From Bacteroidia bacterium (GTDB lineage Bacteria; Bacteroidota; Bacteroidia; Bacteroidales; Prolixibacteraceae), in NCBI GenBank assembly GCA_026391655.1, contig JAPLDR010000098.1, positions 1 to 48,414 on the forward strand: DNA of 48,414 bases, in the 5' to 3' direction. The notes under the pieces were generated by a model, which saw only the letters and a program-made list of their open reading frames with translations, did not search any database and was not told the DNA's origin. Below are positions 4,436 through 27,770 of this stretch, piece by piece (position 1 is the stretch's first letter; every line of letters starts with the position of its first letter). The position numbers and the translations under genes are program-made.

Positions 4436-4472
4436 TATAATTCGATGTTGCTGCGTTACTTAAAAAAAAATA

Positions 4473-4569: not shown

Positions 4570-4586
4570 AAACATTGAGGCTGTAG

Positions 4587-6572: not shown

Positions 6573-6644
6573 AATAGCCTGATTTATTAAAAATCTAAAG
6601 ATTGCAAATAGATTTATTTGCTATGCGAAACTAATGAAATATTT

Positions 6645-10270: not shown

Positions 10271-10560
10271 CGAATCAGAAAATGAATGAATCCTTGCATT
10301 TCAACCTAATTTCAACCCATATCAAATTCCTCCCGGGATAATAAAATTAATTTTAAACAGTCTCTATTAAAAATGAGAATAAAATAAAAATATTTCTATT
10401 TTTGTGGATGAAAATATTACAAAATGCAAGTATAAATCAATATTTACTGACATTTAGTAATTAGATTTCAAAACAATAAGCGATTACACGAAAAACAGAA
10501 AAAAGATTTAACCAATTATGAATTTCACTTTGCAACTTTTTAAATGACGACTAATCCAAA
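10271..10560. promoter_or_regulatory. Leader/promoter region of the hdr-met-glt cluster
   Basis: This is AT-rich and non-coding. TATTTTTG at 10397-10404 matches the -7 consensus, but a -33 box at the usual spacing was not found. No SAM, THF or glutamine riboswitch pattern was recognised. A promoter here would have to drive the whole downstream gene run, since gaps inside it are short. Confidence 0.35.
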
Positions 10561-10974
10561 ATGAATAACCAACTAATCAACATCTCACTCTTTTATTGTT
10601 CAAATTCATTGTCAACGGAAGATATTCAAAAATGTGCTTCCGGGGTAGAAGATGTCCAAATCAATGCAATCTGTTTACCATGCTCCGGAAGGGTTAATTT
10701 ATTGTATCTGCTTAAGGCCATTGAGACGGGCGCCGACGGTGTGCTGTTATTGACTTGCCCGATAGGCGAGTGTACCTATATTCAGGGAAACCTTCGGGCA
10801 CAAAAACGAATTGAGGCGGTAGATGATTTATTGGTTGAAGCTGGCCTGGAAAGGGGATGTATTAAATGTGTACCCCTTCAGGAAGGGAATAAAATGGAAG
10901 CGTTGGTCAACGAGATCAACAACTTGAGTTTGCATCTGAAATCTGAACCACAATTGATTAAGGAACGAGTATAA
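10561..10974 (+). CDS. mvhD: MvhD-like [2Fe-2S] electron-transfer subunit, copy 1
   Basis: This 137-aa protein belongs to the MvhD/FrhD/VhuD 'hydrogenase iron-sulfur subunit' family, which passes electrons to HdrA. Family landmarks are YCSN (Cys13), LPCSGRVNLLYLLKAIETGADG (Cys41) and CPIGECTYIQGN (Cys66, Cys71). These four Cys are the expected cluster ligands. No hydrogenase large subunit is present, so in this setting it would link HdrA to another donor. It opens the gene run and lies 20 nt before metF. A more canonical paralogue is the ninth gene of the run. Copy 1 lacks the CCHFC cluster of cysteines seen in copy 2. Confidence 0.88.
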   Translation: MNNQLINISLFYCSNSLSTEDIQKCASGVEDVQINAICLPCSGRVNLLYLLKAIETGADGVLLLTCPIGECTYIQGNLRAQKRIEAVDDLLVEAGLERGCIKCVPLQEGNKMEALVNEINNLSLHLKSEPQLIKERV

Positions 10975-10994
10975 GTTATTTAATGGATAAATAA

Positions 10995-11885
10995 ATGGAT
11001 AGTTTATTAGCGAAAAAAATTGAAGCTGGTGATTTTATTATTACAGCTGAATACCTGCCGGATATGAACATTGAGGCAACTCCCAGTGATAAATTAAAGA
11101 GTTGCGGTGCGATAGCTATAAATGTTTCTGATAACCCGTATGGCCCGGTAATTTCAAGTTTAGCAACTGCAATAAAATTAAAACAGGCCGGCATTGAGCC
11201 AATATATCAATTAGTTACACGAGACCGAAACCGAATTGCACTTCAGTCGGATATTTTGGGAGCTGCTTCAATGGGGATTAAAAACATTTTATGCTTGTCA
11301 GGATATCATCAGACATTAACCGATATGCCTGAATCCGCAAATGTTTATGATTTCGATTCTATTCAATTGATTGAGGTTGTAAATAAGATGAATAAGGAAA
11401 GGATATTGTTAAATGGCGCCAAAATTAAAGGTGATTTTTCAATGTATGTGGGTGCAGTTGTTAATCCATATTTAAGGCCCTTAGAACTAAATATTATGCG
11501 GCTTAAGAAGAAAGTAAAAGCTGGTGCCAAATTCATTCAAACGCAAGCAGTTTTCAATACTACTGATTTTCAGGAGTGGTTGGATGCCGCTTACCAGAAA
11601 GGAATCACAGAAAAGGCAGCCATTATAGCCGGTATTTATCCACTTGAAAGTTACGATGAAGCAATAAACCTGTTGAAGAAACATACCGATTTTTATATTC
11701 CCGACTCACATGTAAAGAGAATGAAAGAAGCCGGCGATTCTGAAGCTCAAAAAAAAATGGGGATTGCTATATGCGTCGAAACGATTGGGAAAATTAAAGG
11801 GATGAAAGGTTTGAGCGGTATCCATATCATAGCGGGAGGGAGAGAAAACATCATTAGCGAAATTATTGCGGATTCAGGCTTGTAA
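10995..11885 (+). CDS. metF: Methylenetetrahydrofolate reductase, catalytic subunit
   Basis: This 296-aa TIM-barrel protein interconverts 5,10-methylene-THF and 5-methyl-THF. The N-terminal FIITAEYLPD supplies the catalytic Glu (E19). Typical MetF segments are PIYQLVTRDRNRIALQSDILGA and GIKNILCLSGYH, together with GAVVNPYLRPLELNIMRLKK and GAKFIQTQAVFN. The length suits stand-alone FAD-containing MetF. It lies between an mvhD and the glutamate-synthase-like genes, and a matching metV ends the same run. That fits the acetogen-type MetFV pair, which exchanges electrons through a partner rather than directly with NADH. The physiological direction is unknown. Confidence 0.9.
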   Translation: MDSLLAKKIEAGDFIITAEYLPDMNIEATPSDKLKSCGAIAINVSDNPYGPVISSLATAIKLKQAGIEPIYQLVTRDRNRIALQSDILGAASMGIKNILCLSGYHQTLTDMPESANVYDFDSIQLIEVVNKMNKERILLNGAKIKGDFSMYVGAVVNPYLRPLELNIMRLKKKVKAGAKFIQTQAVFNTTDFQEWLDAAYQKGITEKAAIIAGIYPLESYDEAINLLKKHTDFYIPDSHVKRMKEAGDSEAQKKMGIAICVETIGKIKGMKGLSGIHIIAGGRENIISEIIADSGL

Positions 11886-11896
11886 AAATCAACATT

Positions 11897-13297
11897 ATGC
11901 CGGAAAAATATCATATTAAAACTTCTCATGTTCAGCCACGACTTCCCCGTATTGGTAAATTCGGTGTTGTTGACTGGCGTGAAGATTGTGCACGATGTCA
12001 TAATTGTGTGAAAAAAGCCTGTATTTATGACAAGTATCGGGAGGAAAATACATTCATCAGAGATCTTGATGAGGTTCACACATTATATTATGAATGTATG
12101 GGTTGTTTCTCCTGTATTCAAAATTGCACGAAGAACCTGCTGACCATGTCCATCAATTCTGAATACAAAAAATTAGGCAATGCCTATTGGACTCCTCAAA
12201 TTTTTGGAACTACATGGCTGGAGGCAGAAACCGGGAAGGTACCGGTATCCGGGGCGGGTTATAGGGGAAAATTTTCCGGATATGGCTTTGATTCTATGTG
12301 GACTGATATGTCAGAAATTGTGAGACCTACCCGCGATGGTATCCACGGAAGGGAATATATCAGCACTTCAGTTGACATAGGCAGAAAGCCATCCTATCTT
12401 AATTTTGAAAATGATAAGCTTTCTACCGTATTACCTCCAATTATCTCTTTGCCTTTTCCGGTCATTTTCGATATGACCCCGGAAGAACACTCCCTTCCTG
12501 TTTTGGAATCATGTATCTTGGTAACTGCCAAACAAACAGGACTTATAGCAATTATTGATTCAGAGAAATGGAAGGATATTAAACTTGAAAACAAAGAAGA
12601 TTACCTGGAATATATTGCTTTCTATTTACACCCCAATGGGCATGAAATAACAAACGATATTCTTAGCAAGACGAAGCTAGTTGAAATACCCGATAGCAAC
12701 GGAGTCAGGCAACAAATTGATTCAATAAAAAAAAATCATCCGGGAATAATTGTAGCCGTAAGAGTTCCACTAAATGCAAATGCTTCAAAGCGGGTTGATG
12801 AGCTTTCGAAAGTCAGGCCTGAAGTCATTCATTTGGTTGCAGATAGTAATGGAAGCGAAATAGGGGTTGAGAATCCGAGATTTATAAAGGACGTCATGCG
12901 CGAGATTCATGGCAACCTCATTAAAAATGAAGGACGCGATGAAATTACTCTGATTGCCGGTGGTGGCGTGGGTTTATCAGAACATGTTGCCAAGGCTCTT
13001 ATTTGTGGAGCCGATTTGGTGTCCATTGATATACCTCTTTTAATCGCAATAGAATGTCGTTTATGCGAAAGTTGTAAACCGGGCGATTATTGTCCTGCCA
13101 AATTAGATAAACCGATTGATTTAAAATATGGAGCAGGGCGAATGACAAATCTGATGGGCGCCTGGCATTGGCAAATGGTTGAGTTGATGGGTGCAATGGG
13201 TATGCGGGAAGCGCGAAGGTTACGCGGAGATGTAGGTCGCGCTATGTTTAAGGACGAACTTGAAGAAGAAATTTATGGACCAATCTTTAGAAAATAA
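11897..13297 (+). CDS. Ferredoxin-domain glutamate-synthase-related protein (degenerate FMN domain)
   Basis: This 466-aa protein carries N-terminal 4Fe-4S motifs C31-C34-C37-C42 and C67-C70-C73-C77. A glutamate-synthase-like region follows (WLEAETGKVP, then RPTRDGIHGREYISTSVDIG) with a diverged alpha/beta barrel. A CxxCxxC-type 3Fe-4S segment, CRLCESCKPGDYC (387-399), and a C-terminal tail parallel those of the next gene. The FMN/substrate loop present in the next gene (GGYGGTGAAP) is replaced by ADSNGSEIGVENP, so a normal amination reaction looks unlikely. It may be an electron-transfer or structural paralogue forming a heteromer. It overlaps the next gene by 23 nt, which implies translational coupling. 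Confidence 0.82.
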   Translation: MPEKYHIKTSHVQPRLPRIGKFGVVDWREDCARCHNCVKKACIYDKYREENTFIRDLDEVHTLYYECMGCFSCIQNCTKNLLTMSINSEYKKLGNAYWTPQIFGTTWLEAETGKVPVSGAGYRGKFSGYGFDSMWTDMSEIVRPTRDGIHGREYISTSVDIGRKPSYLNFENDKLSTVLPPIISLPFPVIFDMTPEEHSLPVLESCILVTAKQTGLIAIIDSEKWKDIKLENKEDYLEYIAFYLHPNGHEITNDILSKTKLVEIPDSNGVRQQIDSIKKNHPGIIVAVRVPLNANASKRVDELSKVRPEVIHLVADSNGSEIGVENPRFIKDVMREIHGNLIKNEGRDEITLIAGGGVGLSEHVAKALICGADLVSIDIPLLIAIECRLCESCKPGDYCPAKLDKPIDLKYGAGRMTNLMGAWHWQMVELMGAMGMREARRLRGDVGRAMFKDELEEEIYGPIFRK

Positions 13298-14840
13298 CTT
13301 TAATCTTGAGGAGATTTTGCCAGCTAATACGTTCAAGACTCGTGTTACGCAGACAAAGGTTGAACGAATAGTTAAATCAGCTCCTACCAGATATCGCAAT
13401 GAAATTGCAAAATACATCATCTTTCGCAATGAGGAAAAATGCAAATTGTGTGGTAAATGTGTTGCTACCTGCACAAAAGGTGTTCATATCTTAAAGCAGG
13501 GTTATAAACTCTTTGCGTCTCCTCTTAGCTACAAATGCAATGGTTTTGTATGTGAAAAAACGGATCATTTTTGTGTCTCCAACTGTCCGGAAGGCGCCCT
13601 TAGATTAGTGAAAAGTCCAATGATGGAGGCGCTTGGGGATTATCGATGGCCGGCAGATATGATGCTTGCCACCTGGCATATGGCTGAAACCGGCAATCCT
13701 ATTCCCGAAGATTGTGATTTTGAATATGAAACCGGCGATTCAGATGGAGGGTTCGATCGTATCCGTATCGCATTTCCTGATAATCCGGTCACCGTTTCAG
13801 AAGATGAAATCGATATTAGCCTCGACCTCAATAAAAGAAATGATGGCCGGCCTAACATTAAAATTGATGTACCCTGGTATGGCGGAGGTATGTCATTTGG
13901 TTCGATAAGCAATGTGACCCAATTGTCAAAAGCAAGGGCAGCAACAGCCTGGAATACATTTTCCTGTTCAGGTGAAGGCGGATATATGGAACGGTTAAGG
14001 CCGTATGATGACCACATGATCACTCAGGTTGCAACAGGGCTTTTTGGGGTGAGGGAAGAGACCATCCAACGTGTTCGGATCATAGAATTCAAATATGCCC
14101 AGGGCGCTAAACCCGGTCTGGGAGGACACCTGCTTGGTACAAAAAACACACCTGCTGTTGCAAAAATGCGTGAAGCTGTTCAGGGAATCCCTTTGTTTTC
14201 ACCGTTCCCGTTTCATAGTGTATACTCTATCGAAGATCACATGAAGCACATTGATTGGATGAAGCATATCAATACAAGAGCGCTCATTTCAACAAAAGTA
14301 TCAACTCCTACCGATGTTGATATGGTTGCAGTTGGCAGCTATTATGCCGGTACGCATATTATCCATATTGATGGTGGTTATGGCGGAACTGGTGCAGCCC
14401 CCGATATTGCTAAAAAGAACATAGCTATGCCGATAGATTATGCCATTCCGAAAGTTCACAATTTTTTAGTTTCAGAAGGCGCACGCGACACCGTTGTTTT
14501 AATGGCCAGCGGAGGCATACGTAACTATTTTGATATTGTTAAAGCAATCATGCTCGGAGCTGATGGGGTAATTGTAGGTACTGCCGAATTAATAGCGCTT
14601 AGTTGCTTACGATGCAGCAGATGTTCAAGCGGTCGGGGCTGTCCCAGAGGAATTGCTACAACCGACCCGGGGCTTATTACTCAGGTAGAACTTGATTGGG
14701 GAACACAACGAATTATCAATTTATACAATGCCTGGACGATAGGGATTAAAGATATTTTGAAACGTCTGGGCTTGAAAAGTATTAAAGAATTGCGTGGACG
14801 CACCGACTTATTAAGACATTTAGACATATCGAATAATTAG
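13275..14840 (+). CDS. Glutamate synthase FMN/3Fe-4S domain protein with N-terminal ferredoxin
   Basis: This 521-aa protein corresponds to the central synthase domain of GltB, which uses ammonia, 2-oxoglutarate and two electrons to make glutamate. The N-terminal ferredoxin motif is C56-C59-C62-C66, with more Cys in CNGFVCEKTDHFCVSNCPEG. The synthase part has GGGMSFGSIS and KPGLGGHLLG. Then follow the Lys-containing STKVSTP, the FMN/substrate loop GGYGGTGAAP (367-376) and the 3Fe-4S ligands C444, C450 and C456, ending in CPRGIATTDPGL. Key motifs are intact, unlike in the preceding paralogue. I chose ATG 13275 over an upstream in-frame TTG (13260) because it follows a purine-rich GAAGAAG. The GATase partner starts 6 nt after its stop. 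Confidence 0.9.
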   Translation: MDQSLENNFNLEEILPANTFKTRVTQTKVERIVKSAPTRYRNEIAKYIIFRNEEKCKLCGKCVATCTKGVHILKQGYKLFASPLSYKCNGFVCEKTDHFCVSNCPEGALRLVKSPMMEALGDYRWPADMMLATWHMAETGNPIPEDCDFEYETGDSDGGFDRIRIAFPDNPVTVSEDEIDISLDLNKRNDGRPNIKIDVPWYGGGMSFGSISNVTQLSKARAATAWNTFSCSGEGGYMERLRPYDDHMITQVATGLFGVREETIQRVRIIEFKYAQGAKPGLGGHLLGTKNTPAVAKMREAVQGIPLFSPFPFHSVYSIEDHMKHIDWMKHINTRALISTKVSTPTDVDMVAVGSYYAGTHIIHIDGGYGGTGAAPDIAKKNIAMPIDYAIPKVHNFLVSEGARDTVVLMASGGIRNYFDIVKAIMLGADGVIVGTAELIALSCLRCSRCSSGRGCPRGIATTDPGLITQVELDWGTQRIINLYNAWTIGIKDILKRLGLKSIKELRGRTDLLRHLDISNN

Positions 14841-14846
14841 CAGAAT

Positions 14847-17492
14847 ATGTATAACAACAGCATTGATAATATCCTAAAGTCGAAAAGACGATTAATTGAA
14901 CATTTGGTAAACCAGGATAAACCGGAAGCTATGGAAGCAGAAGGTGGATGTGGAGTTATTGGGTTTTGTTGTACTGAACCTGTTCCGGGAAAACACATTC
15001 ACGAACCTTCGCGGCTAATGCATAATCGCGGAAATGGTAAAGGTGGTGGTATTGCTGCCGTTGGGTTTATTCCTGAACAATTGGGCGTTACACGAGAGGT
15101 ATTGGATGATTGTTACATGTTGCACATTGCTTATCTTGATTCAGGTTGCCGGAGTGATGTGGAGAAAAGATATGTAGATTCTGTTTTTGATATTCAAAAA
15201 ACAGCAAAACTCGATACTGTTGATGACTGGAAAAGTGTGCCGGGCCTGGCCGTGAAACCACCTGATGTTTACCGCTATTTTGTTCGTGTAAAGGATGATG
15301 TTTTAAGTAAGTTCATTGCTGATAATCAGTTTGAAAAACTTGAAAGAAGAGACGCAGAGGATGAATTGGTGAACCAAAACAGTTTTAAATTGAACCAGGA
15401 GTTTTACGTGGCTGCAAAAAAACAAATGGCCTTCGTAATGTCTCATGGACGCAATATCATGATTCTTAAAGTAGTTGGATTCGCGGAAGCAGTTACTCAA
15501 TATTATAAAATTGATGATTTGTGTGCTCATGCATGGATAGCACACCAACGATATCCCACCAGAGGCCGCGTTTGGCATCCCGGAGGGGCGCATCCCTTTA
15601 CTGCCATGAATATGGCGCTTGTACATAATGGTGACTTTGCCAATTACCATTCAGTAACAGAATATCTGAAACAACGGAATATTTATCCTCAATTCATTAC
15701 CGATACCGAGGTGTCTGCATTAATGTTTGACTTGCTATCACGCACCTATAAATATCCTATTGAATACATCATTGAAGCATTGGCTCCCACTACAGAGTTG
15801 GACTTTGACCGATTGCCTGTTGAAAAACAAAAAATATACAGGGCTATTCAGGCAACCCACATGCATGGTTCACCCGATGGGCCATGGTTCTTTATCATTG
15901 CCCGTAACCTGATTCAAAACCGTAGTTTTCAATTGATGGGGATCACCGACACGGCCATGTTGAGGCCACAGGTATTTGCATTTGTTGATGGAGAAGTACA
16001 AGTAGGTTTAATAGGTTCAGAGAAACAAGCCATTGATGCAACCCTGACAAGTTTGGCAAAAGACGATAAACGGATATGCCCTGTTGCCGACAAATACTGG
16101 AATGCCCGTGGCGGTAGCTATTCCGATGGTGGAACTTTCATGTTTGATATTGTTCCCAATGAAAAAGGGATTTACAGGTTAGAATGTAAAGATAAATTTG
16201 GCAACGCAGTCCATATCACCGATAAAACGGAAAGTTGTGATTTTGTTACCGAAACAGGGTCATCGCATATTAAAGATCAAATCATCAAAGCTGTTACAAA
16301 CTACGTTGAAGAAGATAAATCACTTGTTGATTATTTCAAATCAAATATACCAGTATGGTCGTTCGCTGATATTTGGTTAACCTGTAAAACATTAAGGGAA
16401 CTCGCAAAAAATAATGCATATACCTCTTATGTAATCAGTACCCTTAGCTTATTGAACGATCAAAACTTTCCTACAGGGAACAAAAGGCGTTCGCACATTC
16501 TTCATATAGTTCGCACTGAACTTGACTTGTTGTTAAAAAGTTTTCCAAAATTGATGTCTAAATTAGAAGACGGGAATACCTACAGGCTTCTTGATTTTGG
16601 AACAAGAGATGATCTTCGGAAACCCAAAGATGATGAGAAAACACTGGTAATTGATGCTAAACTTTTCCCTCCCGAAGGCAATGAATGTGATGCCATGTAC
16701 CTGGTCAATGCTTTTAAAATGGGTTGGAGAAACTTCATTGTTTTCAATTGTGCCGGCCAGCGCTATATTGGTTGTGGGTTAGGACCCGAAACACATGATG
16801 TTTCTATTGAAGTGTATGGAAGTTGTGGCGACTACCTTGCTTCCGGTATCGACGGGCTGAGTATTACTGTTCATGGTAATGCACAGGATCAGCTGGGACA
16901 AATAATCAAAGATGGAAAATTTGTTATTCATGGCGATGTAGGCCAGACATTTCTATATGGTGCCAAGGGTGGCTCAGTTTTCGTGAAGGGCAATGCCGCA
17001 GGACGCCCAATGATTAATTCAGTTGGTCGTCCAAAGGTCATTATAAATGGAACAAGCCTCGATTTTCTCGGAGAATCCTTTATGGCCGGCGATCCACATA
17101 ACAAAGGGGGATTCGTTGTTGTGAATGGCATCAAATTCGATGAAGAAGGTCAAGTCGTTCCTTTACCTGAACCATATCCGGGCAGTAATCTGTTTTCCCT
17201 GGCTTCAGGAGGGGCTGCCTTTATCAGGGATCCACACCGACAATTAGTCAGCCAGCAATTGAACGGTTGTATTTTTACTCCGTTTACCGAAAAGGATTGG
17301 GAATTAATTCTTCCTTATCTGAAGAAAAAAAAAAAACTATTTGGGTTAACTGTAGACGGGAAACGACTCAAACCTTCACGGGTTTACAGAAAAGTTGCAC
17401 CCAGTATTGAAGGCGTTCCTTCAACACCTGAAAAAGATGTGTATGGTGAAGAAGAAGAGGTAGATGAACTTGTTGAAGAAGAAGCAAAATAA
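14847..17492 (+). CDS. Glutamate synthase GATase (class II) + GXGXG domain protein
   Basis: This 881-aa protein has the two outer domains of GltB without the central synthase. The class II amidotransferase starts at GGCGVIGF (nucleophile candidate Cys35), preceded by a 34-residue leader that would have to be removed, as in GltB propeptides. AWIAHQRYPTRG (229-240), VHNGDFANY (259-267) and TDTEVSALMFDLL complete the active site. The C-terminal third is the GXGXG beta-helix (GCGLGPETHDVSIEVYG, then GDVGQTFLYGAKGG), ending in an acidic tail. Together with the FMN protein just upstream it could reconstitute a glutamine-dependent glutamate synthase. It lies 10 nt before hdrC, which ties it to the Hdr genes. 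Confidence 0.9.
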   Translation: MYNNSIDNILKSKRRLIEHLVNQDKPEAMEAEGGCGVIGFCCTEPVPGKHIHEPSRLMHNRGNGKGGGIAAVGFIPEQLGVTREVLDDCYMLHIAYLDSGCRSDVEKRYVDSVFDIQKTAKLDTVDDWKSVPGLAVKPPDVYRYFVRVKDDVLSKFIADNQFEKLERRDAEDELVNQNSFKLNQEFYVAAKKQMAFVMSHGRNIMILKVVGFAEAVTQYYKIDDLCAHAWIAHQRYPTRGRVWHPGGAHPFTAMNMALVHNGDFANYHSVTEYLKQRNIYPQFITDTEVSALMFDLLSRTYKYPIEYIIEALAPTTELDFDRLPVEKQKIYRAIQATHMHGSPDGPWFFIIARNLIQNRSFQLMGITDTAMLRPQVFAFVDGEVQVGLIGSEKQAIDATLTSLAKDDKRICPVADKYWNARGGSYSDGGTFMFDIVPNEKGIYRLECKDKFGNAVHITDKTESCDFVTETGSSHIKDQIIKAVTNYVEEDKSLVDYFKSNIPVWSFADIWLTCKTLRELAKNNAYTSYVISTLSLLNDQNFPTGNKRRSHILHIVRTELDLLLKSFPKLMSKLEDGNTYRLLDFGTRDDLRKPKDDEKTLVIDAKLFPPEGNECDAMYLVNAFKMGWRNFIVFNCAGQRYIGCGLGPETHDVSIEVYGSCGDYLASGIDGLSITVHGNAQDQLGQIIKDGKFVIHGDVGQTFLYGAKGGSVFVKGNAAGRPMINSVGRPKVIINGTSLDFLGESFMAGDPHNKGGFVVVNGIKFDEEGQVVPLPEPYPGSNLFSLASGGAAFIRDPHRQLVSQQLNGCIFTPFTEKDWELILPYLKKKKKLFGLTVDGKRLKPSRVYRKVAPSIEGVPSTPEKDVYGEEEEVDELVEEEAK

Positions 17493-17502
17493 AAATTAAT
17501 AT

Positions 17503-18066
17503 ATGTCCATCGTCATAAGTAAAGAAAAACAGGCAGGCGATTTAATCAACGATGTGCAGAAACTTTCGGGCATCGACATCAGAAGCTGCCTTCAATGCAA
17601 GAAATGTTCCAATGGTTGTCCCGTTACTGGTTTAACGAACGTTCATCCATCCGATATCATTCGGGCAATGCAATTAAATGTGGGGGATAAGATTTTCAAC
17701 AGCGACCTGATATGGATGTGTGCTTCATGTGAAACATGTTATGCACGCTGCCCGATGAAGATCAATATGGCTGAAGTGATGGATGCCTTAAGGGTATTAT
17801 CTGTCCAAAAAAATGGGCCTAAACAGAAGGGTAATGTACCTCTGTTCAATAAATCGTTTCTGAGAACTGTGAAAATGTTTGGCCGTACTTATGATATTGG
17901 AATGATTGCTGCCTACAAATTGGGATCTGCCAGCTTACTTCAGGACACTGACAAATTTCCTATGATGCTCTTAAAAGGGAAAATCGCGCTGATACCTTCC
18001 TTTCAGGCAGATAAAAAATATACCAGGCGAATATTTGGCAGAAAACTGGGCAATACTCAAAGCTAA
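17503..18066 (+). CDS. hdrC: HdrC-like iron-sulfur subunit
   Basis: This 187-aa protein has two 4Fe-4S motifs, C29-C32-C35-C39 (CLQCKKCSNGCPV) and C73-C76-C79-C83 (CASCETCYARCPM). It is the small electron-wiring subunit that connects HdrA to HdrB in heterodisulfide-reductase-type complexes. The C-terminal 90 residues are a basic alpha-helical tail without cysteine. It is followed by hdrB after 10 nt. In Bacteroidota no coenzyme M/B chemistry is expected, so the partner disulfide or acceptor must differ from that of methanogens. Confidence 0.92.
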   Translation: MSIVISKEKQAGDLINDVQKLSGIDIRSCLQCKKCSNGCPVTGLTNVHPSDIIRAMQLNVGDKIFNSDLIWMCASCETCYARCPMKINMAEVMDALRVLSVQKNGPKQKGNVPLFNKSFLRTVKMFGRTYDIGMIAAYKLGSASLLQDTDKFPMMLLKGKIALIPSFQADKKYTRRIFGRKLGNTQS

Positions 18067-18076
18067 AAATCTTAAA

Positions 18077-18949
18077 ATGAGATACTCATATTATCCGGGA
18101 TGTTCGGCAGAATCTACAGCACGCGACCAATACATGTCAGTGAATGAAGTGGCAATAGCGTTGAACATTGAATTAATTGAAATCAAAGGCTGGACTTGCT
18201 GCGGGTCAACTCCTGCCCATCATACTGATAAAATTCTATCCATTGCACTTCCTGTTGCAAACCTGTTAATGGCTCAAAAAACCGGGCTCGAGATGGTTGT
18301 ATTCTGTGCAGCATGTTATAACCGGATGAAAGTTGCCAATCATGAAATACAGACAAACCCCGAAATAAGAAAAGAGATCGCAGCCACTCTGGGTGAAGAC
18401 TATGACGGCAGTGTTAAAGTTCATCATTTTATTGAAGTTCTGATAAAAGAGATAGGAGTTAAAAAATTAAAAGAGGCTTTTACCCATTCACTCTATGGTT
18501 TAAAAGTTGCCAGTTATTATGGGTGTTTACTGGTGAGGCCAAAGGATGTAACCCAATTTGATGATCCTGAAAACCCAACCATCATGGATAAACTTATTAA
18601 ACTGATGGGTGGAGAAATGATTGACTGGCCCCACAAAGTTGAATGTTGTGGCGGTGGTTTTGCACTTTCACGGACCGATATCGTTGTTGAACTTTCGAAT
18701 TCAATATTGGGAATGGCTGAAGCATCAGGTGCCCAATGTATGGCTGTTGCTTGCCCGATGTGCCAGATAAATTTGGACATGAGGCAAAGTGATATCCATA
18801 AAATAAAAGGCAGGGACTATAATTTGCCCGTCGTTTATATTACTCAACTTTTGGGTTTATGCCTGGGTATCTCTCCCAAAAAACTAGGGATGGATAAATG
18901 TGTTGTATCCCCAAAACCCATTATTGAATTAGTTAAAGTGGCAGAATAA
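18077..18949 (+). CDS. hdrB: HdrB-like subunit (two CCG domains)
   Basis: This 290-aa protein contains two cysteine-rich CCG domains. The first has Cys9, Cys41-Cys42, Cys77 and Cys80; the second has Cys150, Cys190-Cys191, Cys226 and Cys229. This CX(31-39)CCX(34-35)CXXC pattern coordinates the non-cubane 4Fe-4S clusters that reduce heterodisulfides in methanogen HdrB. All ligands are present in both copies, so a redox-active site is likely. The true acceptor is unknown. The start at 18077 (MRYSYYPGCS) matches family N-termini; an in-frame upstream ATG at 18035 would overlap hdrC by 32 nt and is less likely. Confidence 0.92.
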   Translation: MRYSYYPGCSAESTARDQYMSVNEVAIALNIELIEIKGWTCCGSTPAHHTDKILSIALPVANLLMAQKTGLEMVVFCAACYNRMKVANHEIQTNPEIRKEIAATLGEDYDGSVKVHHFIEVLIKEIGVKKLKEAFTHSLYGLKVASYYGCLLVRPKDVTQFDDPENPTIMDKLIKLMGGEMIDWPHKVECCGGGFALSRTDIVVELSNSILGMAEASGAQCMAVACPMCQINLDMRQSDIHKIKGRDYNLPVVYITQLLGLCLGISPKKLGMDKCVVSPKPIIELVKVAE

Positions 18950-18969
18950 AAATTAGGCAGAATAGCATT

Positions 18970-21900
18970 ATGAGCACGAACAAGAAAAAAATGGTAGGGG
19001 CTGTATTGGTTGAAGGCGGTGGGATTGCCGGGGTACAGGCATCTCTCGATTTGGCCAATTCCGGATATAAGGTATATCTTGTTAGCCGTACAGCTACAAT
19101 TGGTGGCATGATGTCGCACCTCGATAAAACTTTTCCTACCGGCGATTGTGCAACCTGTATAGTCTCTCCCAAATTGGTTGAATGTGCCAGAAACCTCAAT
19201 ATCGAAATACTTACCCTCTCCGAACTTGAAAAGATTGAAGGGGAACCTGGAAATTTCAAAGCATTGATTAAAAAATCACCCCGGTATATAAATGAAAAGA
19301 TTTGTAACGATTGTGGCGAATGTACTACTGCCTGCCCTGTTCAGTTAGACGACAAATTTAACCGTGATTTAGGCAAACGGAAAGCAATTCAAAAATACTA
19401 TGCACAGGCCATTCCCAATATGCCAAATATGCTCAAGTTGGGACATGCGCCGTGTAAAATGAAATGTCCGGCAAATATCAATATACAGGGTTATATTCAG
19501 CTCATTAAGAAAAAAGAATACGTCAAAGCGGTAAACCTGATAAGGGAACGTAACCCGTTGGCTGCCATCTGCGGACGTGTTTGCCCGGCACCTTGCGAAA
19601 CGGCTTGTACCCGTGCAAATGTGGGGGGGGCATTGGCAATCCGGCAACTAAAAAGGTTTGCATCCGATGAAGAGATGAAGTTGTTCAAAGCGGGTGAATT
19701 AGCTTTGCCAGCAGAAAAAGCACCTTCAGCAGAAGCCAAAAAAATTGCCATTATTGGTGCTGGCCCATCGGGGTTGACAGCCGCCGGTGATTTGGCTGAC
19801 AAAGGGTTTGCCGTTACCATTTATGAAGAAAAAGATCAGGCGGGCGGTATGCTTTATTGGGGTAGCCCTCAATACAGACTTCCGAAGGAAATACTTGATT
19901 ACGAAATAGAACTGATCAGGCGAAAAGGGGTAAACATTGTTTTAAACTGCCGAATTGGTAAGGATAAAACCATCCAGGAGTTGCAAAAGGAATTTGATGC
20001 AGTTTACGTTAGTGCCGGTGCACATGTCAGCAGGAAGCTGGGAATTCAGGGTGAGGATAAAAAAGGGGTAAACTTTGGTGTAGAATTCTTACGGGAAGTT
20101 GGAAATTCCATTGATAGACCCAATGTAAAAGAAAACGTTGTTGTGATTGGTGGGGGTAATGTAGCGGTTGATGTTGCACGAACGGCACTCCGTTTGGGCG
20201 CAAAAAGTGTAGAACTTATTTCCCTTGAAAAGAGGAATGAAATGCCCGCTTACGATGATGAAATTGAAGCTGTTTTAGAAGAAGGAATCATCATCCGTAA
20301 TGGCTGGGGACCAAAACAAATAATTGGAAACGGATCTGTTACAGGCATTGAATTGAAAGAATGCGTCAGTGTGTTTGACAAAAACGGCAAGTTCAGCCCT
20401 TCGTACAACGAAAATAAAATTACAACCACTAATGCCGACCAGATCATTGTGGCAATAGGCCAGATGGTCGACAGTGAATTTTCAAAACACATTGGTGTTA
20501 ATATTGAACGTGGTTGTTTCAAAGCTGATCCTGTCACGTTTGAAACTTCTGTAAAAGGTGTTTTTGCTGGTGGCGATAATGCTTCGGGACCTGCAAGTGT
20601 GATTGATGCTGTCGCAGCCGGAAAGCATGCTGCTGAATCAATCGGACGCTTTCTGAACCACGAGGATATGGTTTCAAACCGTTTCGAACATTCTTTAAAA
20701 CCCGTTCCTGAAGAGCTTTTACCGGTCACAAAAAATATTGAAAAGAAAAAACGTGCAAGCGCGATAGAACTTCCTGTCCGGAACCGTTTCCAAAATTTCA
20801 ATGAAATTGAAGCGGCATTCTCTGTCGAAGAAGCAATTGCCGAAGCTGAACGCTGCCTGAATTGCGCCCAATGTTCCGAATGTATGGAATGTGTCAGCGC
20901 ATGCGAAAAGAAAGCAGTAGAACACAATCAAAAGGATCAATTTATTGAACTGGAAGTTGGGTCAGTAATCCTCACTCCCGGTTTTGACGAATATGACGCT
21001 GAAACAAAGGGTGAATACGGCTTTAACCGATATAAAAATGTAATGACCAGCGTTCAGTTTGAACGTATGCTTTCAGCTGCCGGTCCTTTTGGCGGACATG
21101 TTCAGCGCCGTGATAACGGGAAAGAGGCCAAACGGATTGCCTGGATCCAATGTGTCGGATCGCGCGATTCAAAAAGCGGGAATGAGTATTGCTCATCCAT
21201 CTGCTGTATGGCAACGACCAAACAGGCCATGATCGCCTCAGAACACCTGAATGGATTGGAGGGCACCATTTTTAACATGGACATCAGGGCACACGGTAAA
21301 GATTTTGACCAGTATTACGAACGTGCCAGGGCAATGGATAATTTGGAATACATCAAAAGCATTCCATCACGAATTGTCCAAATGCCACAAACCAACGATT
21401 TGCGTTTGCAATACCTCGATCCGCAGAAAGGTTTGATAGAAAAAGATTTCGACATCGTTGTACTGGCAGTTGGTTTAGACCCAAAAGCCACTGTTACCGG
21501 TAGTATCCGAAAACTTGGGATAGAGATCAATCCTTTTGGATTTTGCGAAACCGACCGGTTGTCTCCTTTGATCACTTCGAAACCAGGGGTTTATGTTGGC
21601 GGATCATTTCAGGAGCCGAAAGATATTCCTGAAACCGTGATCCAGGCCAGTGCCGCAGCATCCATGTCGATGGAACTGTTGTCTTCTGCAAAAAACACAC
21701 TGATCAAGTCAAGGGAATATCCTCAGGAACACGATGTAAGTGACGAGCAGGCCCGGATTGGGGTTTTTGTTTGTCATTGCGGGATGAATATTGCCGCAAC
21801 GGTAGATGTTGAGAAGGTGACCGAAGCCATTAAAAACCAACCGGGTGTCGTTTATGCAGCTCATACCATGTACACCTGTTCCGAAGCCAGTTTGACGAAT

Positions 21901-23436
21901 ATTAAAGAACAGATTTCAATCAATAAATTAAACAGGGTCGTTGTAGCATCTTGTACCCCTAGAACTCACGAACCTATTTTCCGCGAAACGTTGCGGGAAG
22001 CTGCGTTGAACCCCTATTTGTTTGAATTGGCCAACATCAGGGACCAGTGTTCATGGGTACATTCAAAGGAACCTGAAAAAGCAACCGAAAAGGCCATTGA
22101 GTTGGTGAAAATGTCAATTTCACGTGCTCACATCCTTGCTCCATTGGAAGGGGAACGGATACCAATCCTTCAGAATGCCGTTATAATTGGTGGCGGTATC
22201 AGTGGAATGACATCTGCTCTTTCGCTTGCAAAACAGGGTTATGATGTCGACATTATTGAGAAATCCGCTCAATTGGGCGGAAACCTTAAGCTGATCAATA
22301 GTACGTTGGAAAATGAAAATCTTGATAAGTACAAATCTGAACTGTTAGAAGCAACAAATTCACATAGGAATATTGATAGTCATCTAAATTCGGAAATTTC
22401 AGGAATAACCGGGCATATTGGACACTTCACGGTGAAACTGTTAAAAGACAATAAGCCAAAAGAGATATCGTGCGGTGCAATCATTGTTGCTACCGGAGCC
22501 AGTCCGGCTGATACTCAAGAATATCAGTATGGTAAAATTAAAAATATCATCACCCAGGTTGAACTTGAGAATTCATTAATCAAAAATAAAATTCAAAAAA
22601 GCGGGCAGACTTATGTGATGATCCAATGCGTTGGTTCGCGCAACAGTGAGAAACCCTATTGCAGCAGGATGTGCTGTTCGATGGCCATTAAAAACGCTTT
22701 GAAAATTAAGAAAGAGGACCCGGAAGCAAAAATATTCATTCTTTACAGGGATATCAGGACTTACGGATTCAGGGAAACGTATTACAAAAAGGCCCGTGAA
22801 GCTGGTATTGTTTTTATTCGATATGATGAGAAAAATTTACCAGAGGTATCTGATGTCAACGGGATTCTAAGCTCTGTAAAAGTTGACAGTCCAGATTATA
22901 AGGAATCGATTATTATCGAAGCCGATAAACTTATTTTGAGTACCGGCATTGATGCAAACAAGGACAATGCTATCATCTCAAATATGCTTAAGGTCCCTCT
23001 GAATGCAAATGGATTTTATGTTGAAGCCCACATGAAATTAAGGCCAGTCGATTTTGCTACCGAAGGGTTGTTCTTATGTGGTTTAGCTCATTCTCCAAAG
23101 ATGATCGATGAGAACATCTCACAAGCTAAAGCGGCGGCGGCAAGGGCTGCAACCATACTTTCCAAAACACATTTGGAAGTTGGGACGCAGGTTTCAGTTG
23201 TCGATCAGAACAAGTGTATTTCGTGTATGACCTGCGTGAAAGCTTGTCCGTATGGAGCTCCAAACAGTAATTACGACCACAAGGCAGAAATTGAAAGCGC
23301 AAAATGTATGGGATGTGGAATTTGTGTTGCAGAGTGTCCGGCAAGGGCAATCCAACTCAACCACTTCAAATCGGATCATTTTAAAATAATGATTGACCAA
23401 TTATTCAATGTTCCTGAACCTGAAATAGTAAATTAA
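18970..23436 (+). CDS. hdrA: Giant HdrA: HdrA + inserted GltD-like NAD(P)H module + second HdrA
   Basis: This 1488-aa flavo-iron-sulfur protein is built in parts. (1) Residues 1-125 are an HdrA N-terminus with GDCATCIVSPKLVEC (58-72) and a 4Fe-4S motif C112-C115-C118-C122. (2) Residues about 155-570 are a GltD/DPYD-type module. It has Cys162, 166, 201, 205, 209 and 213, an FAD loop IIGAGPSG (261-268), an NAD(P) loop VIGGGNVAVD (392-401) and GVFAGGDNASGP. (3) HdrA resumes with Cys-rich RCLNCAQCSECMECVSAC (628-645). (4) A second HdrA half (about 925-1395) starts GVFVCHCGMNIA, with its FAD loop at 1072-1079. (5) The C-terminus has two 4Fe-4S motifs (C1416-C1426 and C1446-C1456). HdrA proteins hold the bifurcating FAD; the GltD module supplies an NAD(P)H site. 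Confidence 0.93.
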   Translation: MSTNKKKMVGAVLVEGGGIAGVQASLDLANSGYKVYLVSRTATIGGMMSHLDKTFPTGDCATCIVSPKLVECARNLNIEILTLSELEKIEGEPGNFKALIKKSPRYINEKICNDCGECTTACPVQLDDKFNRDLGKRKAIQKYYAQAIPNMPNMLKLGHAPCKMKCPANINIQGYIQLIKKKEYVKAVNLIRERNPLAAICGRVCPAPCETACTRANVGGALAIRQLKRFASDEEMKLFKAGELALPAEKAPSAEAKKIAIIGAGPSGLTAAGDLADKGFAVTIYEEKDQAGGMLYWGSPQYRLPKEILDYEIELIRRKGVNIVLNCRIGKDKTIQELQKEFDAVYVSAGAHVSRKLGIQGEDKKGVNFGVEFLREVGNSIDRPNVKENVVVIGGGNVAVDVARTALRLGAKSVELISLEKRNEMPAYDDEIEAVLEEGIIIRNGWGPKQIIGNGSVTGIELKECVSVFDKNGKFSPSYNENKITTTNADQIIVAIGQMVDSEFSKHIGVNIERGCFKADPVTFETSVKGVFAGGDNASGPASVIDAVAAGKHAAESIGRFLNHEDMVSNRFEHSLKPVPEELLPVTKNIEKKKRASAIELPVRNRFQNFNEIEAAFSVEEAIAEAERCLNCAQCSECMECVSACEKKAVEHNQKDQFIELEVGSVILTPGFDEYDAETKGEYGFNRYKNVMTSVQFERMLSAAGPFGGHVQRRDNGKEAKRIAWIQCVGSRDSKSGNEYCSSICCMATTKQAMIASEHLNGLEGTIFNMDIRAHGKDFDQYYERARAMDNLEYIKSIPSRIVQMPQTNDLRLQYLDPQKGLIEKDFDIVVLAVGLDPKATVTGSIRKLGIEINPFGFCETDRLSPLITSKPGVYVGGSFQEPKDIPETVIQASAAASMSMELLSSAKNTLIKSREYPQEHDVSDEQARIGVFVCHCGMNIAATVDVEKVTEAIKNQPGVVYAAHTMYTCSEASLTNIKEQISINKLNRVVVASCTPRTHEPIFRETLREAALNPYLFELANIRDQCSWVHSKEPEKATEKAIELVKMSISRAHILAPLEGERIPILQNAVIIGGGISGMTSALSLAKQGYDVDIIEKSAQLGGNLKLINSTLENENLDKYKSELLEATNSHRNIDSHLNSEISGITGHIGHFTVKLLKDNKPKEISCGAIIVATGASPADTQEYQYGKIKNIITQVELENSLIKNKIQKSGQTYVMIQCVGSRNSEKPYCSRMCCSMAIKNALKIKKEDPEAKIFILYRDIRTYGFRETYYKKAREAGIVFIRYDEKNLPEVSDVNGILSSVKVDSPDYKESIIIEADKLILSTGIDANKDNAIISNMLKVPLNANGFYVEAHMKLRPVDFATEGLFLCGLAHSPKMIDENISQAKAAAARAATILSKTHLEVGTQVSVVDQNKCISCMTCVKACPYGAPNSNYDHKAEIESAKCMGCGICVAECPARAIQLNHFKSDHFKIMIDQLFNVPEPEIVN

Positions 23437-23437
23437 C

Positions 23438-23887
23438 ATGACTGAACATACATTTGAACCGAAGATTCTTGCATTCTGCTGCCACTTTTGTGCCTATGCA
23501 TCGGCTGATCTGGCCGGTTCCATGCGCCTGCAATACCCTCCGGGGGTAAGGATCATCCGCACCCCTTGTACCGGAAGATTAGAGGTGGAATATTACCTGC
23601 AAGCGATTGAAAACGGAGCAGACGGTGTCTTGATTGCAGGATGCCTTGAGGGAGGATGCCACTTTATTGACGGGAATCTTTTTGCAAGAAAACGTGTCAC
23701 AGCCACCCGTGCCCTTTTGGAAGAATGTGGTATTGACAAAGAACGCTTACGCATGGTCAATATTTCAGCAGCAATGGCTAAAAACCTGGTGGAAGTAATT
23801 TTCGAAATGGTTGATACCGTTAAACAATTAGGGCCAAATCCATTAAAAATAAGTCGTACAATTTTAAAAGAGGAGATACTCAAATGA
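23438..23887 (+). CDS. mvhD: MvhD-like [2Fe-2S] electron-transfer subunit, copy 2
   Basis: This 149-aa protein begins with FCCHFCAY (Cys14, 15, 18), followed by TPCTGRLEVEYYLQAIENGADG (Cys44) and AGCLEGGCHFIDGN (Cys69, Cys74). It is the canonical MvhD form and starts one base after the hdrA stop codon. Its 3' end overlaps metV as ATGA. Adjacent to hdrA, it is the likely electron bridge from HdrA to MetFV, as proposed for the Moorella MetFV-HdrABC-MvhD complex. Confidence 0.92.
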   Translation: MTEHTFEPKILAFCCHFCAYASADLAGSMRLQYPPGVRIIRTPCTGRLEVEYYLQAIENGADGVLIAGCLEGGCHFIDGNLFARKRVTATRALLEECGIDKERLRMVNISAAMAKNLVEVIFEMVDTVKQLGPNPLKISRTILKEEILK

Positions 23888-24552
23888 TAGTTGCTCAACG
23901 AAAAACAATCCCTGAATTACAGAATATTATTAAAGGTCATAAAAACATTCTCGTACTTGGATGTGGAACATGCGTTACGGTATGTTTGGCAGGAGGTGAA
24001 CGGGAGGTATCCATAATTTCTTCGGCATTGCGGATTGCCTCTAAAAAATTGGGTGAACCCATTAAAGTTAATGAATTAACTATTGAACGCCAATGTGATA
24101 ATGTGTTTATTGAAACTGCTGCAGACGAAATTAAGAAATACGATGCGGTTCTTTCTCTAGGTTGTGGCGCCGGAGTTCAGGCCATTGCAGAACGATACCC
24201 CGATAAGCCTGTTTATGCCGGACTTGACACTGCGTTTTTAGGCATACTCGAATCCAGAGGTGTCTGGACCGAAAAATGTGCCCAGTGTGGCGCTTGCGTC
24301 CTGGCCGATTTTGGCGGTATTTGCCCGGTAACCCGCTGTGCAAAACATATGCTAAACGGACCTTGCGGTGGTTCGCGTGTTGAAAGGTGTGAAATCAGCC
24401 CCAATCAGCCTTGTGCCTGGCAACTCATCTACAAAAGGTTAAAAGATATCGGTGAGGTAGATAAACTGAAGAAAATATACCCGGCAAAAAATTGGAGTAA
24501 AAGTCTTGATGGGGGCAGTCGTACAATCATCCGTGAGGATCACAGGATATAA
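23884..24552 (+). CDS. metV: MetV: methylenetetrahydrofolate reductase C-terminal-type zinc/Fe-S protein
   Basis: This 222-aa protein matches the 'MTHFR C-terminal domain' family that partners MetF in acetogens. The N-terminal Cys motif is C27-C30-C34 (LGCGTCVTVC). The C-terminal Cys-rich part reads EKCAQCGACVLADFGGICPVTRC, followed by LNGPCGGSRVERCE. These would bind 4Fe-4S and zinc centres that hand electrons to the MetF flavin. It is the last gene of the run and overlaps mvhD by ATGA. It also converges with, and overlaps by 13 nt, a minus-strand propeller gene. That metF is the second gene and metV the last of a ten-gene run supports a single assembly. Confidence 0.92.
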   Translation: MIVAQRKTIPELQNIIKGHKNILVLGCGTCVTVCLAGGEREVSIISSALRIASKKLGEPIKVNELTIERQCDNVFIETAADEIKKYDAVLSLGCGAGVQAIAERYPDKPVYAGLDTAFLGILESRGVWTEKCAQCGACVLADFGGICPVTRCAKHMLNGPCGGSRVERCEISPNQPCAWQLIYKRLKDIGEVDKLKKIYPAKNWSKSLDGGSRTIIREDHRI

Positions 24553-25889
24553 TTTAGTTTATAGCATACAAGCTGTTGCATATACCGGAGATACAATTTG
24601 CCATTGGCGATTATTGGAACAGTCCATGCAGGATTTTTTACTTCCACCAGGGCCGACATCATCTCGCCAACCTTTTTAAAACCCGAAGGATCAGGCTTTA
24701 TAAGAAACAGGTTCCCTTTTAAATCCTGACAGATAAGGTATCCGTCAGCAAAGGTTGTTGTTCCCTGACCGATCAGATCAGTACTCCACATCTCTTTGCC
24801 TGTTGACAATTCAAGACATTTAAACTGACCAACATTTCGGGCACTTTCGCCCGAATATCCATAAATATAGCCATCGATCAGGATTGGGTCGGAGTGCTGC
24901 GCCTCCATGACATTGTTTTTCCAAAGAACTGAATATCCACTCTTTGTAACTTTAAGTGCTTCACAACCCATTTTGTATCCCGAGGTATGGAATATAATGT
25001 CGTTATAAACGATTGGCGTAGTCGCATTTACTCCATACTCTGTCGGCCATGGAACCGTCCAAAGCACTTTCCCATCTGAAGGATTAAGGCACGAAAGCCC
25101 TTTGGCATGGTAGATAAGGAGCTTAACTTCATTCTCAATATTCATGGTTATTGAAGCAGCGTAACCAACCTCACCTTCCATTGATTTCCAAAGTAATTCA
25201 CCGGTTACCTTATCGTAAGCGATAACCAGTGCATTTCCACCGCCCTGAACAATGACCATGTTTCCAAAAACAAGAGGTGTTGTCGAAAATCCCCATGAAG
25301 GTTCAACACCACCCACATCTTTTACATTGTTTCGCCAAAGGAGTTTTCCATCTTCGAGTTGCCAGCATACCAAATCACCGCTACGACCAAAAGTGTAAAC
25401 CCTATCCTCGTTAATAAATGGTGTTGCCCGGGAACCAGGACCATGTGCGGTTTCTGCCTTAGCCTCATAAGAACCCGACCAGATCAGTTCCCCGTTATCG
25501 GCGTTAAGGCAAAATACCAGATCATTATTTATGTCCCTGCCCGGAACGATTAACCGGTTCCCCTGAACAACAGGTGTTGACCATGATGCTGTGGACTTGT
25601 CCTGACATAAATAGTTAACTTTCCAAAGTTTTTCAAGGCTTTTCGACCAATCTGTCTGAATGCCTTTTGTCGCGCTTTTTCCTTCAAAGTCAGCGCCTCT
25701 CCAATTTGACCAATCTGCAATTCCTTTTGTAATTGGCGGTATAGCTGCGATTTTAGCCGGAATGTTATCCTGTTTCCCGGTTAATGGCTCACTTCCCATT
25801 ATCATGTTATAGATTTGGTATCCAAAATAACCCGCGATTACCAATACAAATGCAACAGTTATAAGAATAATTTTAAATGATTTCTTCAT
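24540..25889 (-). CDS. Membrane-anchored PQQ-like beta-propeller protein
   Basis: This protein of about 449 aa has an N-terminal hydrophobic anchor (FKIILITVAFVLVIAGYFGY). The rest is a PQQ/BamB-like propeller with repeated W-rich blades: IADWSNWRGADFEGK, GELIWSGSYEAKAE, GKLLWRNNVKDVGG, GELLWKSMEGEV and GKVLWTVPWPTEYG. No dehydrogenase cofactor motif was recognised, so it is more likely a scaffold or binding protein outside the cytoplasmic membrane. I start it at ATG 25889; the frame extends to a GTG at 25898. It has the same fold as the gene at 36202. Confidence 0.85.
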   Translation of the reverse strand: MKKSFKIILITVAFVLVIAGYFGYQIYNMIMGSEPLTGKQDNIPAKIAAIPPITKGIADWSNWRGADFEGKSATKGIQTDWSKSLEKLWKVNYLCQDKSTASWSTPVVQGNRLIVPGRDINNDLVFCLNADNGELIWSGSYEAKAETAHGPGSRATPFINEDRVYTFGRSGDLVCWQLEDGKLLWRNNVKDVGGVEPSWGFSTTPLVFGNMVIVQGGGNALVIAYDKVTGELLWKSMEGEVGYAASITMNIENEVKLLIYHAKGLSCLNPSDGKVLWTVPWPTEYGVNATTPIVYNDIIFHTSGYKMGCEALKVTKSGYSVLWKNNVMEAQHSDPILIDGYIYGYSGESARNVGQFKCLELSTGKEMWSTDLIGQGTTTFADGYLICQDLKGNLFLIKPDPSGFKKVGEMMSALVEVKNPAWTVPIIANGKLYLRYMQQLVCYKLNYIL

Positions 25890-26220
25890 ACAGTTCACTT
25901 AAGAAGGTTGATAATATATTTCAATTTGAGTTTTGCTTCAGCCGGATAAAGTGACTGGATTTATTAGATTAGAACGAATGTAAACACTCAGCGAACAGAA
26001 GCAGAACAAAAATAGTAATACCAAATATATTTAAGGCAATGAAAATGGATAAAAAACGATAATATTAAAGAATAGATTTATTAGCCATACAGTTGATTGG
26101 TAAAAAAGGGCTACTTTTAGAGCTGTTTTTAGCGAAAGAGAGATTATCTAAAACCGAACTGAAATCATTTATTCAGACTTTGCTAAGTGAAATATTTTTG
26201 AACCATATAAAATAGTGACC
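25890..26220. promoter_or_regulatory. Divergent intergenic region
   Basis: This AT-rich region lies between the minus-strand propeller gene and the GH27 gene. TATTTTTG at 26193-26200 fits the -7 consensus for the plus-strand gene, 21 nt before its ATG, with only a poor TTTA candidate at the -33 distance. No other structure was seen. Confidence 0.35.
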
Positions 26221-27533: not shown

Positions 27534-27770
27534 ATGGAAAATCAACTCAAAAATAGAATAACTATCAATCCGGAGATTTGTCATGGCAGACCAACCATTC
27601 GGAATACACGTTATACGGTAGATTTAATACTTGATTTACTTTCATCTGGAATGAGTGAGACCGAAATAATTGACGATTATCCGGCTCTTGAAATAAAGGA
27701 TATTAAAGCATGTTTATCCTTTGCTGCGCAATTATCAAAAGTTAAATCAGTTAATCGGATTGTGGCATGA
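27534..27770 (+). CDS. DUF433 antitoxin-like protein
   Basis: This 78-aa protein has the DUF433 signature: ITINPEICHGRPTIRNTRYTV, then ILDLLSSGMSETEIIDDYPAL and DIKACLSFAA. It is a small winged-helix DNA-binding fold. It overlaps the DUF5615 gene by ATGA, which is the standard arrangement for this toxin-antitoxin pair. It probably binds its partner and autoregulates, although no operator was identified upstream. Confidence 0.92.
   Translation: MENQLKNRITINPEICHGRPTIRNTRYTVDLILDLLSSGMSETEIIDDYPALEIKDIKACLSFAAQLSKVKSVNRIVA

Follow-up and report, generated by a model that had tools for sequence, protein, structure and literature searches.

A predicted ten-gene operon that adds glutamate-synthase-type genes to an Hdr-type methylenetetrahydrofolate reductase in a Bacteroidota draft genome

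Gene organisation and predicted subunits

The stretch analysed here (hereafter the window) is the 48,414-nucleotide (nt) contig JAPLDR010000098.1 of a Bacteroidia bacterium of the Prolixibacteraceae (assembly GCA_026391655.1), one entire contig of a 149-contig draft genome with 96.35% completeness. Its forward (+) strand carries, at 10561-24552, ten open reading frames (ORFs) in the order mvhD1, metF, glsA, glsB, glsC, hdrC, hdrB, hdrA, mvhD2 and metV, in which genes for a methylenetetrahydrofolate (methylene-THF) reductase of the MetFV-HdrABC-MvhD type are interleaved with three genes of the glutamate synthase (GltS) type, named glsA, glsB and glsC here for convenience. A preliminary description made from the sequence alone had reported ten closely packed genes on one strand at this place, and the ORF list and the table of gaps bear this out, the successive intergenic distances being 20, 11, -38, 6, 10, -32, 20, 1 and -4 nt. 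The overlaps of -38 and -32 nt depend on TTG starts taken from the ORF list, and alternative later starts are possible at Met6 of glsB and Met15 of hdrB. The run is bounded on its 5' side by a gap of 350 nt upstream of mvhD1 and on its 3' side by a gene on the opposite (-) strand at 24540-25898, the end of which overlaps the end of metV. The ten genes are predicted to form one operon. The sequence TATTTTTG at 10397-10404 fits a Bacteroidota -7 motif; its pattern is about as common as by chance (59 occurrences against a chance mean of 53) and no promoter is therefore claimed for it.

Families were named by Pfam and NCBIfam; among the NCBIfam matches listed, PRK12771 (HdrA) alone meets its curated cut-off. 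The families given in the preliminary description were supported in this way, with the amendment that the first GltS-like gene is a divergent paralogue that matches its profile at the end only. The run opens with mvhD1 (10561-10974; 137 aa), which encodes a diverged MvhD/FlpD-type protein (PF02662, E-value 1.2e-21) with five invariant Cys residues, followed by the methylenetetrahydrofolate reductase gene metF (10995-11885; 296 aa; PF02219, 2e-31), the product of which shows 76% identity to the copies in fen metagenome-assembled genomes (MAGs) described below. Downstream of the gls genes, hdrC (17503-18066; 187 aa) encodes two 4Fe-4S Cys sets (Fer4_17; TIGR03290 below its cut-off) with eight of eight Cys invariant, and hdrB (18035-18949; 304 aa from the TTG start or 290 aa from Met15) matches PF02754 in two stretches and the structures 9sfi_C, 7bkb_B and 5odc_B; both of its CCG motifs are kept (C9/C41-42/C77/C80 and C150/C190-191/C226/C229 in the 290-aa numbering). 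The run closes with mvhD2 (23438-23887; 149 aa), an MvhD with strong matches (PF02662, 1e-46; 7bkb_F, E 2.8e-38), and metV (23884-24552; 222 aa; PF12225, 1.8e-36), which is 83% identical to the fen copies with 13 of 13 Cys invariant and for which the best match in PDB was no better than E 0.14.

The hdrA gene (18970-23436; 1488 aa) was recognised as such in the preliminary description, which missed its tandem form: Pfam, NCBIfam and structure-chain matches indicate a first HdrA half interrupted by a GltD/NfnB-like module, followed by a second HdrA half. The insert, at about residues 159-565, matches Nfn, GltD and DPD chains. The Glu/Lys pair of bifurcating flavins is present in both halves (E698/K751 and E1200/K1241, which by alignment correspond to E356/K409 in 5odc_A, a methanogen HdrA). 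The HdrA of Moorella thermoacetica (162.8 kDa; residues numbered up to 1487, or about 1490 aa; three FAD sites) is similarly described: it contains a GltD insert and two TrxR-like domains, each with a Glu/Lys pair of the bifurcation type (PMC9430772), a likeness drawn from the published description rather than from an alignment to the Moorella protein. The HdrA layout and the two Glu/Lys pairs support the earlier assignment of the MetFV-HdrABC-MvhD part as a putative Hdr-type methylene-THF reductase of the Moorella kind, and metF, metV, hdrA, hdrB, hdrC and mvhD occur together in a single predicted operon, as the definition of this type of enzyme asks.

The nature of the electron donor may be approached through the insert of HdrA. 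NADH is favoured where the second Rossmann strand is followed by an acidic residue, a rule that the stretch SLEKRNEMPA of the insert would presumably fit. Another rule for the choice of cofactor is based on GxGxxG and GxGxxA motifs, and under it the second Rossmann motif of the insert, GGGNVA, favours NADP (PMC12054007). The two rules disagree and the donor is therefore given here as NAD(P)H.

Among the three GltS-type genes, glsB (13260-14840; 526 aa from a TTG start) encodes an FMN glutamate-synthase barrel (PF01645, 5.2e-87) with an N-terminal ferredoxin domain. The protein aligns with the GltS large chains 1ea0/2vdc (E 2.5e-51), and this alignment and the family match indicate an FMN/2-oxoglutarate barrel with its motifs intact; the putative Fe-S cysteines at the barrel end are C449/452/455/461. 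The nearest of the sequences compared is a split GltS encoded on a Monoglobus plasmid (34% identity over 483 aa, 236 bits), followed by a GltB fragment of the host (28% over 395 aa, 134 bits) and a Paracoccus protein (29% over 366 aa, 91 bits). The product of glsC (14847-17492; 881 aa) is a fusion of a class II glutamine amidotransferase (GATase_6) with a GXGXG domain at residues 636-803. Its C35, R235, N261, G262 and D286 are identical in every alignment row that covers them and are presumably the class II glutaminase residues; the propeptide before C35 is assumed to be cleaved. GlsB and GlsC together look like a split glutamate synthase.

GlsA (11897-13297; 466 aa) appears to be a divergent GltS paralogue. 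Its match to Glu_synthase (PF01645, 369 positions) is limited to the last part of the profile, 260-368 in one scan and 177-368 in another, its barrel region is poorly conserved, and it shows 24% identity to the Monoglobus FMN subunit over nearly the full length; 14 of its Cys are invariant. Both GlsA and GlsB retain a pair of N-terminal Cys sets, with a further set of four Cys where the barrel ends. No separate GltD-type ORF was found in the operon by the ORF list, Pfam or NCBIfam, the only GltD-like module being that inside HdrA.

Relatives, conservation and rarity

Relatives were searched for by one contig scan with six exact 8-residue patterns from glsC, an approach that can miss distant relatives in other phyla, and three fen MAGs of the Ignavibacteriae were obtained together with one weak match (L013), which was dropped as a relative since its 32% identity extends over just 63 residues. 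Two of the MAGs (loci L010 and L011) contain the complete set of ten in identical order on one contig each, with protein identities to the window of 65-84%, or 43-47% for mvhD1 (42-43% in a separate alignment). In the third (G688), nine of the ten are spread over three contigs, C56 with mvhD1, metF and the glsA start, C27 with glsC through hdrA, and C49 with the hdrA end, mvhD2 and metV; glsB was not seen in this MAG. A search for conserved synteny of the ten families, as proposed in the preliminary description, thus finds it, and the identical order in L010 and L011 along with the nine genes in the third MAG argues that the cluster is not a product of chance. The surroundings are different: seven window proteins from outside the cluster gave no match at E 1e-8 in L010, L011 or L012, and Pfam places the neighbouring ORFs of the window and the fen copies in different families, the 3' flank of L010 running for just 1.3 kb. 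In the fen MAG locus L012, hdrA is matched at 4060-7423 in two frames that switch at about 6227-6306, due to a frame break or an assembly error.

Between L010 and L011, dN for the ten genes is 0.04-0.13 and dS is 0.76-1.95; the dN/dS comparison rests on this pair, dS relative to the window being beyond estimation. All ten genes are under purifying selection between the complete fen copies, including glsA and mvhD1, for which dN is likewise low against dS.

The preliminary description had placed the combination in the Bacteroidota, which holds for the genome of the window and needs to be narrowed. A glsC match was obtained in one of 198 genomes of the order (E 1e-20), one of 395 of the phylum (E 1e-15) and one of 100 of the family (E 1e-15), always the window's own genome, so that none of the 685 other sampled genomes of the phylum (686 with that of the window) carries it; in the class of the fen MAGs, glsC is found in 3 of 294 sampled genomes (E 1e-30). 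The glsA profile (E 1e-8) is matched in 4 of the 294 genomes of this class sample and in 5 of 98 of one order, and the two extra glsA-positive genomes, G917 and G1003, hold diverged versions. In G917 (L063, C331) a glsA fragment, 38% identical over the visible part, runs off the contig end; MetV was not found in this genome, nor was glsC at E 1e-30. The 3.3-kb contig of G1003 (L067, C82) holds the glsA end, then glsB (61% over 407 aa) and then glsC (47% over 579 aa). As judged by eye, the short stretch preceding the G1003 glsB has no Cys, and hence no ferredoxin domain, and the G917 glsA lacks the first Cys set; the extra Fe-S wiring may therefore be special to the ten-gene form. Among viral contigs, 92 stretches matched a pattern and none was a relative, and plasmid records gave distant GltS-type matches only.

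A MetV match is present in 14 of the 294 class genomes, three of which are the ten-gene genomes. Its context was examined in ten of the other 11 (G841, below the cut-off, being left out) and for the second copies in G686 and G688. These MetV stretches outside the ten-gene loci show no hdr or gls match at E 1e-4, and all except L041 (a 4.2-kb contig) have a metF-like match within about 1 kb of metV. The second MetV, found in two of the three fen genomes (L033, G686:C29; L034, G688:C19), is short, and the MetF beside it is about 40% identical to the MetF of the window.

Host genome and comparison with known systems

Besides a second MetF, the host genome encodes a further GltB in an open frame of 1470 aa. 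In the latter (L002/L003, G000:C88:23459-24466), positions 157-182 of Glu_synthase are absent though the two matches abut in the DNA, so that the host GltB is possibly impaired by a real loss in the barrel, unless the gap is an assembly fault; as the frame is incomplete, the gls genes are not claimed to be redundant. Acetogenic use of the module was considered and rejected: CdhC and the corrinoid activator family RACo were found in none of four draft genomes including that of the window, and FTHFS in one of the four, a genome other than that of the window. Within the limits of draft genomes the module serves no acetogenesis, and its methyl-THF would go to methionine synthesis.

The closest described counterpart of the Hdr part is the MetFV-HdrABC-MvhD of Moorella thermoacetica, which likewise brings metF, metV, hdrA, hdrB, hdrC and mvhD together. 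What sets the operon of the window apart from that of Moorella is an additional MvhD together with three genes of the glutamate synthase type, and its host yielded none of the acetogenesis markers looked for; the Wood-Ljungdahl setting that is usual for Hdr-type methylene-THF reductases, though outside their definition, was not found in the draft genome. The MetVF-HdrCBA-MvhD of Sporomusa ovata has the same subunit set, with an HdrA of 101 kDa that has one additional TrxR-like domain; the accessible part of its description gives no GltD domain and does not mention GltS genes (PMC9430772). Type III HdrA shares with the window a GltD inserted in HdrA, the proposed entry of NAD(P)H, but is archaeal and nearest to single-core type I HdrA, whereas that of the window is tandem (PMC12054007).

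With regard to the gls genes, the split GltS of Clostridia, exemplified by the Monoglobus plasmid NZ_OY725739.1, comprises a separate GATase, an FMN-barrel subunit that by eye has N-terminal Cys sets as in the window, and a GXGXG protein. A stand-alone FAD oxidoreductase, along with a 4Fe-4S protein, is also encoded in the Monoglobus run, whereas in the window the GltD-like module lies only within HdrA, the GATase and GXGXG domains are fused and a second, divergent barrel protein is present. A GltS with an electron-input module other than GltD is also seen in the putative F420-dependent glutamate synthases (FrhB10 clusters) of anaerobic methanotrophic archaea (ANME), where the module is FrhB and where the accessible text does not mention MetFV or HdrABC (PMC9012536); by analogy these may set a precedent for a GltS that receives its electrons from a different module.

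No description of a combined Hdr-type methylene-THF reductase and GltS was found among the papers listed in the open-licence literature searched; the accessible parts of PMC5861303, PMC9430772, PMC5736913, PMC7325909, PMC9012536, PMC12054007, PMC8097209 and PMC6085437 do not describe it, and 'bifurcating glutamate synthase' gave no match in that literature. The operon is regarded as an apparently new form of the Hdr-type methylene-THF reductase operon.

A possible shared redox module and its alternatives

The leading interpretation, held tentatively, is that the ten products constitute one redox module in which a Moorella-type MetFV-HdrABC-MvhD would have glutamate synthase as a second acceptor, outside acetogenesis. 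From gene content and motifs we infer a single complex, along with its donor, its direction, the coupling to GltS, bifurcation and the reduction of ferredoxin. NAD(P)H would deliver hydride to the GltD-like part of HdrA, from where electrons would pass via the HdrA Fe-S clusters to the two TrxR-like flavin domains with the bifurcation-type residue pair. The high-potential branch would leave through HdrC/HdrB and the MvhD proteins towards two acceptors, MetFV, reducing methylene-THF to methyl-THF, and GlsABC, wired through Cys sets of the ferredoxin type in GlsA and GlsB and converting glutamine and 2-oxoglutarate to two glutamates, while ferredoxin or flavodoxin would take up the electrons of the low-potential branch.

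The potential for converting glutamine and 2-oxoglutarate to glutamate is well above -200 mV, at about -0.1 V or higher, and as the high-potential branch this reaction would therefore leave more room to drive the reduction of ferredoxin. For comparison, the E0' values given are -320 mV (NADH), -420 mV (ferredoxin) and -200 mV (methylene-THF), and the proposed bifurcating reaction of Moorella, the acceptor of which is not yet identified, lies near -5 kJ/mol (PMC5861303). A bolder and rather unlikely extension is an electron-bifurcating glutamate synthase, in which HdrA would split the electrons of NADH and the exergonic formation of glutamate, along with that of methyl-THF, would pay for the reduction of ferredoxin.

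Several observations weigh against such a module. Since the HdrA of Moorella is described with a GltD insert too, that feature gives no ground for supposing an adaptation to GltS, and glutamate formation thermodynamically needs no bifurcation. Given the gapped host GltB, the gls genes might simply be the host's working glutamate synthase. The fold prediction for GlsA was poor (mean pLDDT of 34 with a three-row alignment) and was discarded, providing no subunit contacts. The diverged gls genes of G917 and G1003 have no visible hdr or met linkage, and the gene upstream of the G917 glsA is divergently oriented, so that no metF or mvhD1 precedes it. These last observations also favour the closest rival to the shared module, which stands not far behind it though it is itself doubtful: two enzymes in one operon, with MetFV-HdrABC-MvhD coupling methylene-THF reduction to the production of reduced ferredoxin from NADH, and a separate ferredoxin-dependent GlsABC using that ferredoxin, so that the two would be linked through co-regulation and a diffusible carrier. 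Cys sets of the ferredoxin type, as present in GlsA and GlsB, would suit this arrangement, and the Moorella MetFV-HdrABC-MvhD is described without GltS in the accessible part of PMC5861303. It is countered by the position of the gls genes, which lie between metF and hdrC in both complete relatives rather than at an edge. Separation of the GltS from the Hdr/Met genes in relatives, which the preliminary description had named as speaking against one complex, was seen in no relative with the ten-gene-type set.

GlsABC may instead be a related glutamine- or amine-using FMN enzyme, for instance one like N-methylglutamate synthase (MgsABC), that feeds or drains the methylene-THF pool. At a Paracoccus plasmid locus, presumably one for N-methylglutamate synthesis, the three domains of GlsABC occur next to a gene for type III glutamine synthetase; with GlsA the operon has one more, divergent, barrel protein where the Monoglobus locus shows a single GltS-related gene, and the host has its other, if incomplete, GltB frame. 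This alternative is nonetheless improbable, as GlsB is nearer to the split GltS of Clostridia (34%, 236 bits) than to the Paracoccus protein (29%, 91 bits) and no gmaS- or mgd-like match occurs among the subset of window ORFs scanned with Pfam. Operation in the oxidative direction, with methyl-THF from demethylation or methionine turnover oxidised to methylene-THF and its electrons passed to NAD(P)+ and glutamate formation, draws on the proposal that MetFV-type enzymes of other organisms work both ways and on the richness of fens in methylated compounds. It is less probable still: RACo was not found in the four draft genomes, and the oxidation of methyl-THF with NAD+ is uphill at the potentials given in PMC5861303. 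Finally, a chance neighbourhood, an assembly chimera or a misbinned contig might be suspected where the window is a whole contig of a 149-contig draft. This is highly improbable and was rejected in view of the identical order in two independent assemblies and of the tetranucleotide signature, the joined window flanks correlating at 0.81 with their own genome against 0.54 with the fen genomes.

In the same tetranucleotide comparison, for which short stretches were omitted, leaving 8 of 10 from the own genome and 7 of 10 from the fen genomes, the cluster of the window correlates at 0.63 with its own genome, near the bottom of the range of own controls (0.62-0.82), against 0.49 with the fen genomes, and the L010 and L011 clusters at 0.57 and 0.66 with the fen genomes against 0.32 and 0.36 with the genome of the window. 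As each cluster correlates best with its own host, a recent transfer between the window genome and the fen lineage is unsupported; since glsC is so restricted in the phylum, an old transfer is possible. A calibration of identities yielded three reciprocal pairs only (29-52%), too few for use.

What serves the Moorella-type complex as second acceptor is yet to be identified (PMC5861303, PMC9430772). The operon of the window adds a second candidate acceptor enzyme to such a complex, in hosts for which the search for acetogenesis markers was negative, and the question of the acceptor becomes testable from another side, namely whether HdrA is a general NADH-splitting hub for biosynthetic reductions. 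If GltS is driven through HdrA, ammonia assimilation could save energy in some anaerobes, and if the bifurcating glutamate synthase is real, an assimilatory reaction that normally loses energy would become a source of low-potential electrons without acetogenesis.

Other genes of the window include an ammonium transporter at 773-2161, about 8 kb upstream of the operon, for which no link is shown, and a glucosamine-6-phosphate isomerase domain fused to a PIG-L deacetylase domain at 4587-6572. Two ATPases match candidate defence models, an AAA_14/DUF4143 protein at 7636-8775 (PDC-S01) and an AAA_13 protein of 851 aa at 29854-32409 (full-length match to PDC-S06), and a DUF5615 PIN-like protein at 27767-28123 is a possible toxin of a toxin-antitoxin pair. 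A run of carbohydrate-active genes with GH97, two GH26, GH88 and Fib_succ_major occupies 38044-47641.

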